64,000 nucleotides of DNA from Mycobacteriales bacterium (GTDB taxonomy: Bacteria; Actinomycetota; Actinomycetes; BP-191): the NCBI GenBank assembly GCA_035714365.1, contig DASTMB010000048.1, forward strand, positions 1 to 64,000, read 5' to 3'. Positions 5,555-63,252 of the stretch are shown in pieces. The position numbers and the translations under genes are program-made. The notes beneath the pieces were generated by a model. It saw only the letters and a list, made by a program, of their open reading frames with translations, ran no database searches and was not told where the DNA came from. Within the stretch, counting starts at the first letter, position 1, and the number at the start of each line of letters is the position of its first letter.

Positions 5555-6167
5555 AGCCGGCGCGCCAGCGCCGGGTCGTGCTCGCGCCGTCGGAGACGGC
5601 GACGCCGTTGCCGAAGTAGCCGAACACCGGCTCGCAGACCTCGGTGCGCGCCTCCACGGCCGTGAACTCCGTGCCCGCCTCGACGTCGACGAGGTCCAGC
5701 GGGACCGTCCACGTCACCGTCGCGCCGGCCACCGTCGCGCGCACCGGCGTGACGTAGACCGTCGTGCCGGCGACCGTCGGCCGCAGCACGGCGCACTCGC
5801 CGAACGCCCAGGCGTTCGACCCGGCGACCGAGTAGATGCTGCCCGGGGTGTAGACGAGGTCCAGGTCGCCGCAGTCGGGGATCGTCGCCCGCACGTGGTA
5901 CGTCACCCCGGCCGGCGCCACGACCGCGTCGGCGACGCGCAGCGTGACGACGAGGCGTTCCGGCCGGTACGCCCGGCGCACGACGCGCCCGGTCGTCCGT
6001 ACCGTCACGCCGACGATGTCCAGCGAGCCGTGCGGGACGAGTGCGTCGCCGGCCGGGTCGGTCCAGGCGAGCGGCCGCGCGGGACCGGGCGCGGCGGCGT
6101 ACGACGGTGGCGCGGCCACGGCGACGGCGGCCAGTACGGCGAGGGCGGCGGTGCGGAAGCGGCGCAT
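5553..6167 (-). CDS. Secreted protein of unknown function
   Basis: A 204-residue protein with a clear Sec signal peptide (MRRFR, a hydrophobic stretch, then cleavage near SYAAA), so it is probably exported. The mature part is rich in beta-branched residues and has three cysteines (in IPDCGDL, GECAVL and EVCEPV). The DPAGDA stretch near the mature N-terminus resembles exported proteins with DPAGDxxG-type starts. I do not recognise the family. The start is fixed by GAAGGGAA a few bases before ATG 6167. It is convergent with polA. Confidence 0.75.
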   Translation of the reverse strand: MRRFRTAALAVLAAVAVAAPPSYAAAPGPARPLAWTDPAGDALVPHGSLDIVGVTVRTTGRVVRRAYRPERLVVTLRVADAVVAPAGVTYHVRATIPDCGDLDLVYTPGSIYSVAGSNAWAFGECAVLRPTVAGTTVYVTPVRATVAGATVTWTVPLDLVDVEAGTEFTAVEARTEVCEPVFGYFGNGVAVSDGASTTRRWRAG

Positions 6168-6235
6168 GGCGGTTCCCTTCGACACCGTGCAGAGCCGCGA
6201 GCGGCGGCGCGGGTTCGGCGTGCCACCATGGCCGC

Positions 6236-6787
6236 GTGGTCGCACCCGGTCCCCGCGTCGTCGTCGGCGGCATCTCCGGCTCCGGCAAGTCGACGCTCGC
6301 CCGAGAGCTGGCCCGCCGCCTCGGCGCGCCGCACGTCGAGCTGGACGCGCACTTCCACGGCCCCGGCTGGACGGCGACGCCGGACGACGCGTTCCTGGCG
6401 TCGGTGACGGCGGCCGTCGCCGGCGACACCTGGGTGGTGGACGGCAACTACACCCGCGTCCGGGAGGCCGTGTGGTCGCGCGCGACGACGTTCGTCTGGC
6501 TCGACTACGCGCGCTGGGTCGGCACCTGGCGGGCGACCCGCCGCACCGCGCGGCGGCTGCTGGTCCGCGAGGAGCTGTGGAACGGCAACCGCGAGGTGTG
6601 GGCGAACATCCGCGACCCCGGCCACCCCATCTGGTGGTCGTGGACGCAGCACCCCGGCTGCCGCGCGAAGTACGAGGCGGCCGTGGCCGACCCGCGCTGG
6701 GCCCACGTCGACGTCGTGCGGCTGCGCTCGCCGCGCGAGACGGCGGCGTGGCTGGCCACGCTGCCTCACTATGCTGCGCGCCCATGA
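6236..6787 (+). CDS. P-loop nucleotide kinase, adenylate-kinase/FlaR-like
   Basis: A 183-residue P-loop protein. Walker A is GGISGSGKST (about residues 9-18), followed by VELDAHFHGPGW and DTWVVDGNY, the pattern of the small 'DNA topology modulation/FlaR-like' kinase group. WLDYARW and RRTARRLL give the lid region. It probably phosphorylates a small molecule or nucleotide; the substrate is unknown. GTG 6236 is chosen because it gives the normal family N-terminus; the upstream in-frame sequence is Arg-rich and non-homologous. It overlaps the following lipoprotein gene by ATGA, so the two are probably translationally coupled. Confidence 0.75.
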   Translation: MVAPGPRVVVGGISGSGKSTLARELARRLGAPHVELDAHFHGPGWTATPDDAFLASVTAAVAGDTWVVDGNYTRVREAVWSRATTFVWLDYARWVGTWRATRRTARRLLVREELWNGNREVWANIRDPGHPIWWSWTQHPGCRAKYEAAVADPRWAHVDVVRLRSPRETAAWLATLPHYAARP

Positions 6788-7341
6788 GGCCGTACGCCGC
6801 CGCCGTCCTGCTCGCGCTCACCGCCTGCACCGGCGGCAAGGCCCCGACCGCGGCCCCGTCCGGCCCCGCGTCCGCCACCGCCGCGCCCGCGACGACACCG
6901 CCGATCCCCACCAAGCGGCCCACGACGAGGCCGCCCGCGACGCCGACGGCCGCCGTCGTCCGCACCGACCTCGCGGACGGCCGGCACTACGCGTACGCGA
7001 AGGCGCTCGACACCGCGAAGCGCACCGTCGTGATCGACGTCGTGCAGTTCCTCACCGGCAAGGCCGCCCAGCAGGCGGCGGAGGAGGACGGGCAGGAGGC
7101 GTTCGAGTACTACGTCCGCAACCAGAGCACCAGGCTGCGGACGCTGTCGTTCGTCCCGGCCCTGCCCGTCGTCGTCAACACCCTGACCGCGAGCGAGACC
7201 GGCAGCTCCTCGGCGGACAAGACGATCACGGTCGCGAAGTGGGCGTCGTACTTCGCGAAGGGCGAGGCGCAGCAGCGCCTGTACATCTTCACCGTCCAGG
7301 GCGGTGTCGTCGTCAAGGTCCGCGAGCAGTACCTGGCGTAG
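6784..7341 (+). CDS. Putative lipoprotein of unknown function
   Basis: 185 residues with a short signal peptide ending in LTACTG, a lipobox with the modifiable Cys at about residue 15. A Pro/Thr/Ala-rich spacer of about 40 residues follows, then a globular part. The domain from DGRHYAYAKALD to VVKVREQYLA has alternating strands and no known active-site motif. It should sit on the outer face of the membrane. It shares an ATGA overlap with the kinase gene upstream. Its TAG stop supplies the TA of the next promoter's -10 box. Confidence 0.75.
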   Translation: MRPYAAAVLLALTACTGGKAPTAAPSGPASATAAPATTPPIPTKRPTTRPPATPTAAVVRTDLADGRHYAYAKALDTAKRTVVIDVVQFLTGKAAQQAAEEDGQEAFEYYVRNQSTRLRTLSFVPALPVVVNTLTASETGSSSADKTITVAKWASYFAKGEAQQRLYIFTVQGGVVVKVREQYLA

Positions 7342-7344
7342 CGT
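7339..7344 (+). promoter_or_regulatory. -10 box TAGCGT overlapping a stop codon
   Basis: TAGCGT begins with the TAG stop of the lipoprotein gene and lies 6 nt before ATG 7351. It predicts a leaderless mRNA for the AlaX-type gene. No Shine-Dalgarno sequence is seen between the stop and the start. Confidence 0.5.
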
Positions 7345-7350
7345 CGGCGC

Positions 7351-8079
7351 ATGGCCGACACGCACGGACGCACCCACCGCCTCGAGCTCGCCGACGCCAC
7401 GCTGCGCGAGTGGGACGCCACCGTCCTCGACGCCACCGAGGAGGGCGTCGTGCTGGACCGCAGCGCATTCTACCCGGGCGGCGGCGGGCAGCCGCCGGAC
7501 CACGGCGTGCTGCTGTGGGGCGGCGTGCAGAGCCGCGTCGTCGGCGTCCGCAAGGGCGACGACCTGCTGCTCCAGCTCGCCGAGGGCGACCCCGTGCCGC
7601 CCGCCGGCACCACCGTCCGCGGCGCGGTCGAGGACGAACGCCGCACCGCCCTCATGCGCACCCACTCGGCGCTGCACCTGCTCGGCGGCGTGGTGTTCCG
7701 CGAGTACGGCGCGCTGGTCACCGGCGGCAACATGGAGCCGCTCACCGGCCGCCTCGACTTCAACCTCCCGGAGATCCCGGAGGACTTCAAGGACCGGGTC
7801 GCCGCCGCGTGCGCGGCCGAGGTCGGCAACGACCGCCCGATCGAGGTGAAGACGCTGCCGCGCGACGAGGCGTTCGCGATCCCCGACATCATCCGCACCG
7901 CCACCAACCTGCTCCCGCCCGGCCTCACCGAGGTCCGCATCGTCGACATCGTCGGGCTGGACGCGCAGGCCGACGGCGGCACGCACGTCGCCTCCACCCG
8001 CTTCATCGGTCCCATCGAGCTGGTCAAGGTGGAGAGCAAGGGGAAGGCGAACCGCCGCCTCCGCATCGCCCTGCACTGA
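7351..8079 (+). CDS. AlaX-type alanyl-tRNA editing protein
   Basis: A free-standing editing domain related to the C-terminal part of alanyl-tRNA synthetase, which deacylates Ser- or Gly-tRNA(Ala). At 242 residues it is AlaX-M sized. FYPGGGGQPPDHG (about residues 36-48) is the conserved glycine motif. The zinc site is HSALH plus GGTHVAST. The Cys that precedes GGTH in alanyl-tRNA synthetase is Asp here, which I believe is common in AlaX-M proteins. The C-terminus (VKVESKGKANRRLRIAL) matches the family. Confidence 0.88.
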   Translation: MADTHGRTHRLELADATLREWDATVLDATEEGVVLDRSAFYPGGGGQPPDHGVLLWGGVQSRVVGVRKGDDLLLQLAEGDPVPPAGTTVRGAVEDERRTALMRTHSALHLLGGVVFREYGALVTGGNMEPLTGRLDFNLPEIPEDFKDRVAAACAAEVGNDRPIEVKTLPRDEAFAIPDIIRTATNLLPPGLTEVRIVDIVGLDAQADGGTHVASTRFIGPIELVKVESKGKANRRLRIALH

Positions 8080-55633: not shown

Positions 55634-55679
55634 AGTGTGCGGCGCACACGTCCATGTCGGGCGCCCGTAGGCGGCGCCC
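55631..55679 (+). promoter_or_regulatory. ctaA promoter and leader with two inverted repeats
   Basis: TAGAGT (55631-55636) overlaps the preceding stop codon and is the likely -10. It runs into the palindrome GTGTGC (55635-55640), GGC, GCACAC (55644-55649), a plausible operator at the start point. Further on, GGGCGCC (55659-55665) and GGCGCCC (55673-55679) would form a 7-bp hairpin in the leader, about 24 bases before ATG 55703. Confidence 0.45.
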
Positions 55680-55702
55680 CTTCGTCGCGGCCCAAGGTGC
55701 GG

Positions 55703-56634
55703 ATGTCCCGGTTCGGCAGGCTCGCCGTCACGACGGTCGCGGCCACCCTCGTGCTCGTCGCGGCGGGCGGTTTCGTGCGCGCGATGGAGGCCGGGCTCGG
55801 CTGCCCCGACTGGCCCACCTGCCACGGCGCGCTGAACCCGCCCTCGACCCTCGGCTACGGCGCGCTCAAGCTCGCCTGGATCGAGCACAGCCACCGCCTC
55901 TGGGCGGCGTTGCTCATCGGTCTCATCGGCGTCCAGGCCGTCGCCGTCCGCCGCACCGCGCTGCCGCGCCGGGTGCGCGTCGCCTGCTACTGGCTGGTCC
56001 CGGCCGTGCTGTCGCAGGCGGTCATCGGGGCGTTCGTCGTCTGGCTCAAGCTCGACGCGCAGTCGGTGCTGCTGCACCTGGCCGGCGCCATGACCATCCT
56101 CGGCCTCGCCGTCTACGTCGCCCTGCACGCGCTCGGCCGCGGCCGGGAGGCGCGCGGCGATGCGGCCGCCGTGCGGGTGCTCGCGCCGGCGGCGCTGGTC
56201 GTCACGCTCGCGCAGATGATCCTCGGCTCGGCCGTCACCGGGTACGGCGCCGGGCTCGCGTACGGCACGTTCCCGTCGTTCAACGGCCGCGTGCTCCCGC
56301 CGGCGCTCGCCAACGAGCAGCAGGTGCTGCACGTCGCGCACCGGCTCACCGCGTACCTCGTCGCCGTGCTCGTCGTCTGGCTGGCCGTGCGGGCGCGCCG
56401 GGCAGAGCCGCTCGTGCGGCGGACGGCGTGGCTCGCGGTGGCGCTCGTCGGCGTACAGGTCGCGCTCGGCGCGCTGAACGTGTGGTTCCGGCTCAAGGCG
56501 TGGTCGGTCGCGCCGCACCTCGCGGTCGGGTCGTGGATCGTCACGGCGCTGTTCGTCGTCGCCTACCGCGCCCGCTGGTCGGCCCCCGCGGCCGCGCCGG
56601 AGCCGGTCGCCGTGCTGGACGAGGCGGTGCCGGC

Positions 56635-56638
<4 letters not shown>
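55703..56638 (+). CDS. ctaA: Heme A synthase
   Basis: Oxidises heme O to heme A for cytochrome oxidase. 311 residues with eight membrane segments in two four-helix halves. Heme-ligand His residues lie in [33 protein letters not shown] and [10 protein letters not shown] Cys pair in [10 protein letters not shown] on the first outer loop is the redox pair of CtaA. ATG 55703 is preferred over an upstream start, whose extension is Arg/Pro-rich and unlike the family. It overlaps ctaB by GTGA. Confidence 0.94.
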
Positions 56639-57552
<914 letters not shown>

Positions 57553-57643: not shown

Positions 57644-58456
57644 CTACCGCCCGGCGCGCAACGCGTCGAGGTGGGCGTCCAGCCGCACCGTGGCGCGGGC
57701 GTCCGCGCGGAACCACGCCGCCACCGCGCAGGCCAGCGCCGAGAGCATCAGCACGTCGCCCCCCGCCCACATGATCGCCCCGGCCAGGTGCTGGTCGGCG
57801 AGCGCCCCCGCCCGGGTCGCGTAGTGCGCGTAGAGCACCCGGTCGGCGCCGAGGATCGCCACGCCGAGGAACGACTGCATCGGCATCGCCAGGAACAGGT
57901 AGCCGCACCGCGCCGGCCACGGGAACGACCCCGGCACCGGGTCGCGCCGCACCACCGGCCACCAGAACAGCGCCGCCGCCCCCAGGTAGAGCAGGTGCTC
58001 GACGCCGTGCAGGACCGGGTTGCGCAGGCTGGCGTCGTAGAGCGGGCTGAAGTGGGTCACGTACATGACGCCCGCGAACAGCAGCCAGGTCACCGCCGGG
58101 TGCGACACGAAGCGCACGACCCGGCTGTGCAACGCCGCCAGCAGCCGCCGGCGCCCCGCGCCCGGGCCGAGCGCCTGCAACGCCAGCGTCACCGGGGCGG
58201 CGAACGCCAGCAGGGGAGCGGCGCCGTAGGTGAGCAGCAGGTGCTGCGCCATGTGCACGCTGAACCGTTCCTCGGAGACGGTCGCGAGCGGCGAGCAGAG
58301 CGCGACGACGAGCACCGCCAGCGCGGCGCAGAACCACCGGGTGCGGGCCGCCGCGACGCCCGCCGGCACCCGTTGGACGCCCCACAGCCAGGCCAGCGCG
58401 AGGCCGGTGAGGCCGAGCACGACGACCGGGTCGGCGTGCCAGCGCAGGAGCACCAC
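57644..58456 (-). CDS. ctaG: Cytochrome c oxidase assembly factor CtaG (caa3 type)
   Basis: 270 residues, about seven membrane segments, caa3_CtaG family, needed for copper insertion or assembly of caa3-type oxidases. Marks are LRWHADPVVVLGL at the N-terminus, FSVHMAQHLLLTYGAAPLL (about residues 65-83), VMYVTHFSPLYDASL, HGVEHLLYLGAALF-like GVEHLLYLGAAALFWW and DQHLAGAIMWAGGD, with the conserved His residues in the membrane. GTG 58456 lies 6 nt from TACCCT on the minus strand. Its presence beside ctaCDEF fits an A2/caa3-like oxidase. Confidence 0.9.
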   Translation of the reverse strand: MVLLRWHADPVVVLGLTGLALAWLWGVQRVPAGVAAARTRWFCAALAVLVVALCSPLATVSEERFSVHMAQHLLLTYGAAPLLAFAAPVTLALQALGPGAGRRRLLAALHSRVVRFVSHPAVTWLLFAGVMYVTHFSPLYDASLRNPVLHGVEHLLYLGAAALFWWPVVRRDPVPGSFPWPARCGYLFLAMPMQSFLGVAILGADRVLYAHYATRAGALADQHLAGAIMWAGGDVLMLSALACAVAAWFRADARATVRLDAHLDALRAGR

Positions 58457-58631: not shown

Positions 58632-59687
58632 GTGCGACACGTCGGGCGACGGCCCCGGCTGCGGCTCGCCGCCGCGGCCCTCCTGCCCTTCCTGCTGAGC
58701 TCCTGCGCGCAGCACCCGGCCAGCGAGCAGGGCGCGAAGGTCTACACGCTCTACAACATCGTCCTCGCGATCGCGCTGCTCATCGGCGTCGGCGTCGTCG
58801 GGATGATCCTGCTGAGCTGCGTCCGCTACCGGAAGCGCCCCGGCGACGACGAGCTGCCGCCGCAGACGCACGGCAACACGACGTTCGAGATCATCTGGAC
58901 CGCGCTGCCGACGCTGGTCGTGCTGAGCCTGTTCGCGATGTCGTTCGTGACGATCCGCGCGATCGACAAGCCGAACGTCAAGCGCGCGGCGGTCGTCGAG
59001 GTCCGCGGCTACCAGTGGACCTGGACGTTCGACTACGGCACCAACGCCGCCGGCACCCGCGTGGTGGTCCGCCAGGAGGGCCCGGACAAGCCGCCGGAGA
59101 TGGTGGTGCCGGTCGGGGAGACCGTGCACATCGAGGAGCGGTCCGACAACGTCATCCACTCGTTCTTCGTGCCGCGCTTCCTGTTCAAGCGCGACGTCGT
59201 CCCGGGCAAGGCCAACGGGTTCGACCTGACGGTGTCCTCGCCGGGCGTCTACGGCGGCCAGTGCGCCGAGCTCTGCGGCACCGACCACGCGCTGATGACG
59301 TTCACGGTGCGCGCGGTGGGGCGCACCGAGTTCGACAAGTGGTTCGCCGAGTTCAAGCCGTTCCGCCCGAAGTGCGAGGAGACCGGCAAGGCGACGAGCG
59401 ACGTCACGATCACCTCGCCGGAGAACCTCGCCGAGTTCACCGAGAAGTGCGCCTACGTCAAGGCGGGCGCGCCGACCAAGCTCACGTTCAAGAACGGCGG
59501 CGGTCTCCAGCACAACGTCGCCGTCTACGACGGGTCGATCACCTCCGGCGGCAAGCTCATCGCCAAGACCGAGATCATCCAGGGCGGCACCGTGACGGCC
59601 GAGGTGCCCGCGCTGAAGACCGGCGGTGACTACAACTACTTCTGCCAGGTCCATCCGCAGATGGAGGGCAGGTGGGTCGTCCAGTGA
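58632..59687 (+). CDS. ctaC: Cytochrome c oxidase subunit II with extra C-terminal cupredoxin domain
   Basis: 351 residues. A lipobox (LLSSCAQ) and two membrane helices are followed by the CuA domain with the upstream ligand in VIHSFFVPR and GQCAELCGTDHALM (C-x3-C-x3-H-x2-M). Standard subunit II ends soon after. Here about 105 residues more form a second cupredoxin, with His in GGLQHNVAVY (H294) and CQVHPQM (C338, H341, M344), an amicyanin-like type 1 copper site. In caa3 oxidases the fused domain is cytochrome c; here a blue-copper domain takes that place. GTG 58632 is the start that retains the signal/lipobox. Confidence 0.93.
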   Translation: MRHVGRRPRLRLAAAALLPFLLSSCAQHPASEQGAKVYTLYNIVLAIALLIGVGVVGMILLSCVRYRKRPGDDELPPQTHGNTTFEIIWTALPTLVVLSLFAMSFVTIRAIDKPNVKRAAVVEVRGYQWTWTFDYGTNAAGTRVVVRQEGPDKPPEMVVPVGETVHIEERSDNVIHSFFVPRFLFKRDVVPGKANGFDLTVSSPGVYGGQCAELCGTDHALMTFTVRAVGRTEFDKWFAEFKPFRPKCEETGKATSDVTITSPENLAEFTEKCAYVKAGAPTKLTFKNGGGLQHNVAVYDGSITSGGKLIAKTEIIQGGTVTAEVPALKTGGDYNYFCQVHPQMEGRWVVQ

Positions 59688-59748: not shown

Positions 59749-61410
59749 GTGACCACCGTTGCCGCCAGGCCGTCCCACTCGGCCCCGGCGCCGAAGCCCC
59801 GGTCGAAGGTCGTCGACTACCTGACGACCACCGACCACAAGAAGATCGGGGTGATGTACCTCTTCTTCGCGTTCACCGCGTTCCTCGTCGGCGGCGTGCT
59901 CGCCCTCGGCATCCGGACGCAGCTCGCGAGCCCGGGCGGCACGTTCATCAAGGACCCGGACACCTACAACCAGCTCTTCACCATGCACGCCACGGCGATG
60001 CTGTTCTTCTTCATCATCCCGATCTGGGCGGGCTGGGGTAACTACATCGTGCCGCTGCAGATCGGCGCGCTGGACATGGCGTTCCCGCGGATCAACGCGC
60101 TGTCGTTCTGGCTGCTGCCGGCCGGCTTCGTGACGATGTTCGGCGGCTACCTGGCCAAGGGCGGCCCGGCCGCCGCGGGCTGGACGGAGTACCCGCCGCT
60201 CACCGACCAGCGGTTCATGCCCGGCCACGGCACCGACCTGTGGATCGTCGGCCTGATCCTCGTCGGCGTCTCGTCGACGCTCGGCGCGATCAACTTCATG
60301 GTCACGATCTTCAAGATGCGCGCGCCCGGCATGACGATGTTCCGGATGCCGGTCTTCACCTGGAACGTCCTGGTGACCAGCATCCTCACGCTGCTCGCGC
60401 TGCCGGTCCTCACCAGCGCGCTGATCATGCTGTTCATCGACCGCAACTACGGCGGCTCGTTCTTCGACCCCGGCGTCGGCGGCAACGCGATCATGTGGCA
60501 GAACCTGTTCTGGTTCTACAGCCACCCGGCCGTCTACATCATGATCCTGCCGGCGTTCGGCCTGATCTCCGAGGTCATCCCGGTGTTCAGCCGCAAGCCG
60601 CTGTTCGGCTACAAGGCGTTCGTGCTCGCGACGATCGCGATCGGCGCGCTCGGCTTCTCCGTGTGGGCGCACCACATGTTCGCCACCGGCCAGGTGCTGC
60701 TGCCGTTCTTCGCGCTGATGACGTCGTTCATCGCGGTGCCGACGGGCGTGAAGTTCTTCAACTGGATCGCCACGCTCTGGCAGGGGAAGATCACGTTCGA
60801 GTCGCCGATGCTGTTCGCGATCGGCTTCCTCACGATGTTCCTCATCGGCGGCCTCAACGGCATGTTCGCGGCGCAGCCGCCGATCGACTACGCGATCCAC
60901 GACACGTACTGGATCGTCGCGCACATCCACGACGTGCTCTTCGGCGGGTCGGTGTTCGCGGTCTACGCGTCGTTCTACTTCTGGTACCCGAAGGTCACCG
61001 GCCGGATGATGGACGACAAGCTCGGCAAGGTGCACTTCTGGATCACGTTCGTCGGGTTCAACCTGGCGTTCTTCCCGATGCACATGCTCGGCCTCGACGG
61101 CATGCCGCGGCGCATCGCGTCGTACTCGGCCAACCCGGAGTGGGCGCTGCTGAACAAGATCTCGACGCTCGGCGCGTTCATCATCGGCGTCTCGATCTTC
61201 CCGTTCCTGTACAACCTCTGGAAGTCGCGCCGTGGCCCCGTCGCCGGCAACGACCCGTGGCAGGCGAACTCCCTCGAGTGGTGGACGTCGTCACCGCCGC
61301 CGGTCCACAACTTCGACTCGCTGCCGCCGATCCGCTCCGAGCGCCCCGTGCTCGACATGCGGCTCGAGCGTGAGGCCGAGGCCCGTCTCGCCGCGGGGGG
61401 TGCCGCGTGA
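59749..61410 (+). CDS. ctaD: Cytochrome c oxidase subunit I, A2-type
   Basis: 553 residues, at least twelve membrane helices, the catalytic heme a/heme a3-CuB subunit. Ligands: MHATAMLFFF (heme a), FWFYSHPAVYIMILP (CuB His with cross-linked Tyr), WAHHMFATG (CuB His pair) and VAHIHDVLFGG (heme a3 and heme a). The motif YSHPAVY lacks the Glu of the A1 motif GHPEVY and defines the A2 subfamily, where Tyr-Ser replace that Glu in the D-channel. GTG 59749 has GAGGAGG upstream. It overlaps ctaE by GTGA. Confidence 0.96.
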   Translation: MTTVAARPSHSAPAPKPRSKVVDYLTTTDHKKIGVMYLFFAFTAFLVGGVLALGIRTQLASPGGTFIKDPDTYNQLFTMHATAMLFFFIIPIWAGWGNYIVPLQIGALDMAFPRINALSFWLLPAGFVTMFGGYLAKGGPAAAGWTEYPPLTDQRFMPGHGTDLWIVGLILVGVSSTLGAINFMVTIFKMRAPGMTMFRMPVFTWNVLVTSILTLLALPVLTSALIMLFIDRNYGGSFFDPGVGGNAIMWQNLFWFYSHPAVYIMILPAFGLISEVIPVFSRKPLFGYKAFVLATIAIGALGFSVWAHHMFATGQVLLPFFALMTSFIAVPTGVKFFNWIATLWQGKITFESPMLFAIGFLTMFLIGGLNGMFAAQPPIDYAIHDTYWIVAHIHDVLFGGSVFAVYASFYFWYPKVTGRMMDDKLGKVHFWITFVGFNLAFFPMHMLGLDGMPRRIASYSANPEWALLNKISTLGAFIIGVSIFPFLYNLWKSRRGPVAGNDPWQANSLEWWTSSPPPVHNFDSLPPIRSERPVLDMRLEREAEARLAAGGAA

Positions 61411-62003
61411 CCGCGGTGACGACGACCGAGGCCATGGACACCGCCGAGGGGCGCCCCGAGGGCATGTCCATGCCGCTGCTCGGCATGGTGCTGTTCATCG
61501 CCTCCGAGGTGATGTTCTTCGGCGGCCTGTTCGCCATGTACTTCAACGTCCGCGCGGACGCGAAGGTCTGGCCGCCGGCGGGCCTGGAGGAGCTGCGCGC
61601 GACGCTGCCGGCGATCTTCACCTGCATCCTGGTGCTGTCGTCGGTGACGATGCACCTGGGCGTGCTGGCGATCCGCCGCGGCAACACGAAGGCGCTGGCG
61701 CGCTGGGTCGGGATCACGCTGCTGCTCGGCGTGATCTTCCTCTGCGGGCAGATCTACGACTACGCGCACCTGGAGTTCACGATCCGGGACGGTGTGTACG
61801 GCTCGTCGTTCTACACGCTCACCGGCTTCCACGGCGCGCACGTCTTCGGCGGCGCGATCTACCTGTTCATCGTGCTCATCCGGACGATGACCGGGCAGTT
61901 CAGCAAGGCCCACCACGCGGCCGTCGAGGGCGCGTCGATGTACTGGCACTTCGTCGACGTGGTCTGGATCGCGCTGTTCTTCACGCTCTACGTGCTGAAG
62001 TAG
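61407..62003 (+). CDS. ctaE: Cytochrome c oxidase subunit III
   Basis: 198 residues with five membrane segments. Family marks are MVLFIASEVMFFGGLFAMYF near residues 25-44, ITLLLGVIFL, GFHGAHVFGGAIYLF and YWHFVDVVWIALFFTLYVL at the end. Subunit III stabilises proton uptake into subunit I. Translationally coupled to ctaD. In many actinobacteria ctaE instead heads a qcrCAB operon; here no bc1-complex genes follow. Confidence 0.95.
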   Translation: MTAVTTTEAMDTAEGRPEGMSMPLLGMVLFIASEVMFFGGLFAMYFNVRADAKVWPPAGLEELRATLPAIFTCILVLSSVTMHLGVLAIRRGNTKALARWVGITLLLGVIFLCGQIYDYAHLEFTIRDGVYGSSFYTLTGFHGAHVFGGAIYLFIVLIRTMTGQFSKAHHAAVEGASMYWHFVDVVWIALFFTLYVLK

Positions 62004-62010
62004 GCCGCCC

Positions 62011-63252
62011 GTGCGCACCGCGTCCCGCGTCTTCCTCTGGCTCGGCGTCTTCGGCCTGATCGCCACGCTGATCTTCGCCGCCGGCAGCCGGTTCCGGTAC
62101 GACAACCTCCAGGGCGTCGTCGTCCTCGGCGCGTTCTTCCTGGCCTGCGTCTACCTGTCCCGGCTGATGCGCGGCCCCGGCTCGCTGGAGATCGACGGGC
62201 TGAAGCTGCCCGGCGCCGGCGAGCACGAGGACGAGGAGATCCACCTGCCGGGACCGAGCTGGTGGCCGGCCGCCTACGGTGTGGCCGGCTTCGTGCTCGT
62301 GCTCGGCCTGGTGATGAACCGCACCATGCTCCTCGTCGGCATCGCGCTGATCGTGCTCACGACGATCGGCTGGGCGCTGGAGAGCGTCAAGGAGTACCGC
62401 CGCGAGATCGCCCACCACAAGCCGGTGGCGCTGCCGCACCCGGACGCGATCGAGCTGGCGCAGCACGTCCTCGCGTTCCGCCGCGACCACGGCGGCGCCG
62501 ACGCGGTCGTGCAGCACGTCGGCCGCGGCGCCGGCGAGGTCGTGCTCGTCGGCCGCGACGGCGCGTGGGGCAACCTGCTCGCCCGCGACGTCGCCATGGC
62601 CCGCGAGGCGTGCGCGCTCGCCGACACCGAGCTGCACACCGCCTGGCCGAGCGGGCTCGGCGCGCGCGTCGTCACCGGCCCGGACCAGTGGCAGGCGATG
62701 GGCGGGGACCGCACGTTCTCCGGCGGCGACGGCCACGAGGCGCCGCGCGACGGCACCACGCAGGTCGCGGGCCGGGTGTTCCTCTGGCTGGCGTTCTTCG
62801 CGATCCTCGCCGACGTCCTGTTCGCCGTCGCGAGCAAGTTCCGCTTCGACAACCTCCAGGGCGTCGTGATCCTCACGGCGTTCGCCGTCGCCTGCTACTA
62901 CCTGCACCTCGGGCTGAAGAACGCGAAGGCCCGGCCCGAGGACGCCGCGTACGTCGGCGACGACCACGTGACCATCGAGCCGGCCGAGCCGGACCCGCCG
63001 GTCGACCTGGAGACCCTCCACCTGCCCGGCCCGAGCTGGTGGCCGGCGTTCTTCTCGGTCGCGGGCCTCGTGCTCGTGCTCGGCCTGGTGTTCCACAGCG
63101 GGGTGACGATCGCGTCGGGCATCGTCCTGCTCGTCGTCTGCTGCGTCGGCTGGGGCATCCAGAGCGTGCACGAGTACCGCCAGGCGATCTCCGGGCAGCA
63201 CCACGGCACGCAGGACGCCCTGCACCCCGCGCCGTCGCCGCTGTCGCACTGA
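62011..63252 (+). CDS. ctaF: Fusion protein: two cytochrome oxidase subunit IV (CtaF-like) domains around a soluble domain
   Basis: 413 residues, about three times the usual CtaF size. Domain 1 (about residues 1-140) and domain 2 (about 250-400) are clear repeats: RVFLWLGVFGLIATLIFAAG / RVFLWLAFFAILADVLFAVA, FRYDNLQGVVVLGAF / FRFDNLQGVVILTAF, and HLPGPSWWPAAYGVAG / HLPGPSWWPAFFSVAG. Each has four membrane helices, as in actinobacterial CtaF. Between them about 90 residues (HPDAIELAQHVLAFRRDHGG to GPDQWQAMGG) form a soluble domain that I do not recognise. No stop or frameshift separates the parts. It follows ctaE by 7 bp. Confidence 0.82.
   Translation: MRTASRVFLWLGVFGLIATLIFAAGSRFRYDNLQGVVVLGAFFLACVYLSRLMRGPGSLEIDGLKLPGAGEHEDEEIHLPGPSWWPAAYGVAGFVLVLGLVMNRTMLLVGIALIVLTTIGWALESVKEYRREIAHHKPVALPHPDAIELAQHVLAFRRDHGGADAVVQHVGRGAGEVVLVGRDGAWGNLLARDVAMAREACALADTELHTAWPSGLGARVVTGPDQWQAMGGDRTFSGGDGHEAPRDGTTQVAGRVFLWLAFFAILADVLFAVASKFRFDNLQGVVILTAFAVACYYLHLGLKNAKARPEDAAYVGDDHVTIEPAEPDPPVDLETLHLPGPSWWPAFFSVAGLVLVLGLVFHSGVTIASGIVLLVVCCVGWGIQSVHEYRQAISGQHHGTQDALHPAPSPLSH

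Follow-up and report, generated by a model that had tools for sequence, protein, structure and literature searches.

Actinobacterial CtaF (PF12270), as found in M. tuberculosis (8hcr_H), C. glutamicum (7q21_F) and M. smegmatis (6hwh_S), is a four-helix protein of about 140 aa, with a long loop connecting helices 2 and 3, a P-x-S-W-W-P-like motif before helix 3, and a gene located beside ctaC-D-E. CtaE and CtaF together are the equivalent of subunit III, with CtaF supplying its first two helices, and both carry the contact between subunits III and IV (PMC8361435). Covalent attachment of CtaF-like helices to another oxidase part is also known. COX1-COX4 (ctaF) fusions occur in proteobacteria (PMC4013037), and subunit I of aa3-600 has extra C-terminal helices of this kind. 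Furthermore, CtaA has been proposed to result from the tandem duplication and fusion of a four-helix ancestor (PMC8239418).

Here, we analysed a window of 64,000 nucleotides, the whole stretch of DNA under study, from a Mycobacteriales bacterium. It encodes a protein in which two CtaF-like halves (F1 and F2) enclose a further domain (X). Each half shares with actinobacterial CtaF the four helices, the long loop, the motif and the gene neighborhood. In contrast to CtaF, the fused protein has two copies per chain with X between them, is very divergent, and reaches 413 aa. Judged by sequence, the homology of each half to CtaF is not in doubt, and the fused protein represents an architecture variant. 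The COX1-COX4 fusions and aa3-600 subunit I resemble it in the covalent joining of CtaF-like helices to an oxidase part; however, there the partner is subunit I, the copy is single and X is missing. The doubling of a four-helix unit to an eight-helix protein, within the same pathway, is shared with CtaA, which, unlike the fused CtaF, is an enzyme, ancient, widespread, and free of an inserted soluble domain.

As a separate observation, many CtaD proteins of other classes (L128-L148; frames of 620-800 aa) seem to end in an extension matching CtaF helices 3-4 (HLPxPSxWP), which would amount to a fusion of CtaF-like helices to subunit I; the sequence was read in L198.

Anatomy of the fused protein

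The frame opens with a GTG start, 8 bases past the ctaE stop, and continues for 413 codons without a stop (Table 1). The initial annotation had proposed two subunit-IV-like halves in one frame, and this is borne out. Besides the repeated HLPGPSWWPA block, DNLQGVV occurs at residues 31-37 (F1) and 280-286 (F2), and the halves share 42-43% identity (tblastn E about 1e-33), far above chance. The whole protein scores 38.3 bits against PF12270 (Cyt_c_ox_IV), above the cut-off of 26.9, with single stretches scoring weaker. Each half has four long transmembrane helices in the AlphaFold2 secondary structure, as in CtaF, and the loop lengths of F1 and F2 differ. The full-length model runs from four helices through X to four more helices; with its low pTM of 0.42 it informs on the order of the elements only, and docking cannot be read from it. 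About 90 residues had been assigned to the middle part. The stretch between the halves is longer, about 112 residues (138-249), and about 95 of these (140-234) make up the folded domain.

Table 1. Features of the fused gene and of the oxidase gene cluster in the window.
Feature	Position	Strand	Basis
Fused gene ctaF(1)-X-ctaF(2), 413 aa	62011..63252	+	open frame; full-length orthologues in G002 (68% identity) and G001 (62%)
F1, first CtaF-like four-helix half, residues 1-137	62011..62421	+	PF12270 at residues 3-125; AF2 helices 2-25, 30-53, 85-101, 104-135
HLPGPSWWPA block of F1, residues 78-87; opens subunit-III-TM1-2-like module	62242..62271	+	sequence; PDB profile match
X domain, residues 140-234	62428..62712	+	homologues; AF2 pLDDT 91
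Low-confidence linker from X to F2, residues 235-249	62713..62757	+	pLDDT <50 at 232-248
F2, second CtaF-like four-helix half, residues 250-400	62758..63210	+	42-43% identity to F1; AF2 helices 248-274, 279-305, 344-361, 364-394
HLPGPSWWPA block of F2, residues 337-346	63019..63048	+	sequence; PDB profile match
ctaA (heme A synthase)	55637..56638	+	PF02628 E 8e-46
ctaB (heme O synthase)	56632..57552	+	PF01040 E 7e-67; 47-62% to ctaB at other genera's loci
Caa3_CtaG copper assembly factor	57644..58456	-	PF09678 E 4e-67
ctaC (COX2), including a C-terminal cupredoxin domain; start position approximate	58665..59687	+	PF00116, PF02790, PF13473
ctaD (COX1)	59749..61410	+	PF00115 E 1e-164
ctaE (COX3, short type)	61407..62003	+	PF00510 E 1.4e-42

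Searched against the PDB, the F profile matched CtaF (8hcr_H) at E 0.0044 and the pair of C-terminal helices in aa3-600 subunit I at E 0.0088; a weak match (E 0.2) covered residues 5-65 of subunit III from Rhodobacter. These matches agree with the assignment of CtaE plus CtaF to subunit III (PMC8361435). Foldseek with the whole model placed 8hcr_H first and both 7q21_F and 6hwh_S, likewise CtaF, among the top four, at E-values (0.3-0.8) that allow a ranking only.

Distribution and conservation

The two congeners G002 and G001 encode full-length orthologues without stops or frameshifts; the fused gene directly follows ctaC-D-E in the window and in G002, and ctaD-ctaE in G001. One of these two genomes corresponds to the MAG 'Frankiaceae bacterium BP_191' (L032). 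The window genome is a draft assembly (98 contigs), in which an assembly or sequencing artefact could in principle join separate genes. Because three species with separate assemblies share this arrangement (62-68% identity), the fusion is not a sequencing error, and the chance of an artefact is practically negligible. Thus, the fusion is shared by all three genus genomes examined, and the missed stop or frameshift that the initial annotation had considered occurs in none of them.

Outside the genus the picture is different. PF12270 matched 140 of the 148 relatives, and beyond the genus these matches were single domains, none with another copy in its frame; ordinary CtaF of the class relatives is one domain of about 130 positions. 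The best E-values in the genus range from 1e-4 to 1e-7, versus 1e-30 to 1e-54 in the other relatives, which indicates that the genus copies are divergent. In a scan of 396 genomes of the phylum with the half profile, adjacent copies sharing a frame came up in the window genome only, which was the sole member of its genus among the matches. No other CtaF locus was detected in the window genome, and no description of a doubled CtaF with an inserted domain was found in the literature searched. The possibility of a common, already described architecture therefore found no example in these genomes and publications; as far as searched, the architecture is confined to one genus.

Across the genus, amino acid identity is 63-66% and 65-74% for the two halves and 61-71% for X. 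The HLPGPSWWPA block is kept in both halves throughout, save one W-to-Y change in F1 of G001. With a third-position G+C near 100%, dN/dS is uninformative here. F1 and F2 form sister clades (support 97/90), each with all three genomes, in a tree built from 48 CtaF domains, so that one ctaF duplication preceded the species split. Gene conversion between F1 and F2, considered for SFDN-GG in both G002 halves versus RYDNLQG-like sequences elsewhere, was not significant (two fully parallel sites, p 0.26).

A different soluble domain is present in CtaF of family f60, where a SnoaL_2/NTF2-like domain (PF12680, E 2e-18) follows helix 4 (L186:1975-2829, L191:6010-6864; also in L187). The two types share the position of the soluble domain after CtaF helix 4; however, the f60 protein has a single CtaF copy, and the SnoaL_2-like domain stands where the genus has X. 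Soluble domains were therefore appended to CtaF at least twice.

The X domain and its relatives

The middle part had been reported as being without recognised homology. This no longer holds, as a search with X retrieves stand-alone homologues of ~105 aa and 34-40% identity in Streptomyces-like and other actinomycete genomes. The similarity is reciprocal, from the window protein to stand-alone X (E 1.7e-17) and from the Streptomyces-type profile to the window X (E 6e-24). The stand-alone proteins have no Pfam or NCBIfam model and belong to no named family, no described function was found for them, and the available part of a review of bacterial oxidase assembly factors contains no X-like protein (PMC9145763). 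Both forms are the same domain, with conserved HGGA, LVGxDG and WxxM motifs; the stand-alone form is a free, unfused soluble protein, whereas in the window X forms part of the CtaF chain.

X was found in 56 of 395 class genomes (10 genera), and it stands alone in all those read outside the genus. Among 20 stand-alone loci of the same class with flanks, ctaA and/or ctaB lie within 6 kb in 19, and both in 17, usually in the order ctaB-X-ctaA. In the window, ctaCDE separate the fused X from ctaB, at a distance of about 5 kb. Other classes contain more distant relatives (E 1e-6 to 1e-10 per genome), which have no oxidase genes nearby. Three of these relatives, in families f55/f90, are located between proS and rimP-nusA-infB (genes named by eye from sequence), and two of the three genomes of the genus encode a distant stand-alone X-like protein of ~120 aa close to lpdA and pepA (L236:4760-5029, L237 about 5956-6195). 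These neighborhoods indicate a family without a single context, and with X relatives beside proS-rimP-nusA-infB in other classes, the gene context is suggestive, not proof. Profile-profile comparison joins all X groups at E-values of 1e-10 to 1e-26, and of these groups the ctaB-linked Streptomyces type is nearest to the window X. In the X tree, the place of the fused X within the family is not settled (p-AU 0.218). From its sequence relationships, X is a member of a wide actinobacterial small-protein family, closest to the type encoded beside ctaB/ctaA.

The X-family proteins between proS and rimP-nusA-infB in other actinobacterial classes are ~93 aa long and form an undescribed member of this translation operon (L206:5942-6220, L209:5919-6200, L210:2805-3083).

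The AlphaFold2 model of X, built with 69 sequences, has an alpha-beta-beta-beta-alpha-beta fold (pLDDT 91) without a significant match in the PDB. The best Foldseek hits, a ribosomal eL38-like chain (8eug_k; prob 0.90, TM 0.48) and dsRNA-binding-like chains, were not significant. The ligand-sensing module suggested by the initial annotation finds no backing in any family or fold match of X.

The X family also bears on whether the gene makes one working chain. An internal start at ATG 62698, in frame and with an AGG just upstream, or proteolysis, could yield separate CtaF units and X. However, this AGG is closer to the ATG than a usual ribosome site would be, and none of the three genomes shows a break in the frame. 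Moreover, the methionine in question is conserved because it is part of the W-x-x-M motif common to the stand-alone X proteins. The internal start, raised earlier as an origin of domain 2 alone, is thus a weak candidate, and separate products are very unlikely.

Proposed working of the fused subunit

We tentatively favour the reading that the fused protein is a real structural oxidase subunit, a tandem-duplicated CtaF fused through X, with X anchored at the oxidase and the chain probably bridging two CtaCDE units. The chain would belong to the only aa3-type oxidase found in the window genome. A tandem duplication would have given two CtaF units, joined in frame via X. X would lie on the cytoplasmic face, where helix 2 of subunit III ends, because CtaF starts and finishes on that side. 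Each half contains the part that replaces helices 1 and 2 of subunit III and retains the conserved block ahead of it, and the halves would tether X permanently beside the cytoplasmic surface of CtaD/CtaE. There, X would act as the free protein of the heme A loci does elsewhere, in oxidase maturation or regulation, a role suggested by the linkage to heme A genes together with the fusion.

The least certain step is the docking of the second half. With one docking site expected per CtaD-CtaE pair, it would probably bind another oxidase, so that one chain bridges two CtaCDE. Bridging is suggested because both halves keep the same conserved block, and it is possible on this basis. Since PF12270 scores are weak in the genus, docking details of the canonical CtaF may not carry over. 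The earlier proposal that a doubled CtaF could alter the stoichiometry of the oxidase is plausible.

It is also possible that one chain serves one oxidase, with one half in the normal CtaF place, the other at a new peripheral place, and X as a built-in cytoplasmic maturation or regulatory factor. The anatomy and the context of X are as compatible with this arrangement as with bridging, and the divergence of the halves to about 43% identity, with loops of different length, would fit two different places. However, the retention of HLPGPSWWPA and the similar conservation of both halves suggest a single kind of partner surface.

Alternatively, the fusion could be near-neutral. A tandem ctaF and a neighboring small gene would have been joined by stop loss, leaving X as a mere spacer whose old function was kept or lost independently. 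Such events are conceivable, as oxidase subunits often fuse, for example COX1-COX4 (PMC4013037), and the X family occurs in unrelated contexts. A spacer, however, would be expected to drift, whereas X is conserved like the membrane halves (61-71%) and folds confidently, and we regard this explanation as unlikely.

Returning to the bridging subunit, a more far-reaching version would have X act in the maturation or regulation of actinobacterial heme A oxidases, as a so far unrecognised factor that is mostly a free protein with its gene next to ctaB and ctaA; in this genus it would be part of a doubled CtaF linking two oxidases as an obligate dimer. In this full form the proposal is speculative and rather improbable. 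The fusion is a pointer that connects the oxidase with an undescribed small-protein family, whose genes stand next to those for heme A in Streptomyces-like and other actinomycetes, and the kinship to the heme-A-locus proteins gives X a first testable role. A naturally doubled part of subunit III also bears on oxidase dimers and supercomplexes in a lineage without detected SURF1. Of the two, the undescribed X domain family is a more interesting lead than the CtaF variant.

Origin of the oxidase operon

The oxidase itself differs from those of related genomes. In the ctaD tree, the genus joins family f60 of another class as its sister (support 97), and 36 CtaD of the same class form a separate clade (99). 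An actinomycete oxidase of the bcc-aa3 supercomplex type would be expected among those of its class, and the window CtaD does not group there. The gene order ctaA-ctaB-ctaG(rev)-ctaC-ctaD-ctaE-F is common to the genus and f60 (L201/L191). SURF1 (PF02104) was undetected in the window genome and its two congeners (G000, G001, G002) and in three f60 genomes, and present in all six other same-class genomes checked. The ctaD tree, the f60 gene order and the undetected SURF1 together indicate that the whole oxidase system represents a type known from beyond the class. A transfer of the oxidase operon between classes is likely, not proven.

Two further observations concern electron transfer. In CtaC, the CuA domain is followed by another cupredoxin domain at the C-terminus (PF13473), a possible built-in electron donor. 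The window genome has one strong COX1. A single cytochrome b (PF00033) was detected there, a short form of the b6-type, and no second, standard actinomycete cytochrome b was found. Near the b6-type gene are those of a small c-type cytochrome and of a further, distant COX1-like protein (L149:220-1017 on the reverse strand and 6507-7952 on the forward strand).
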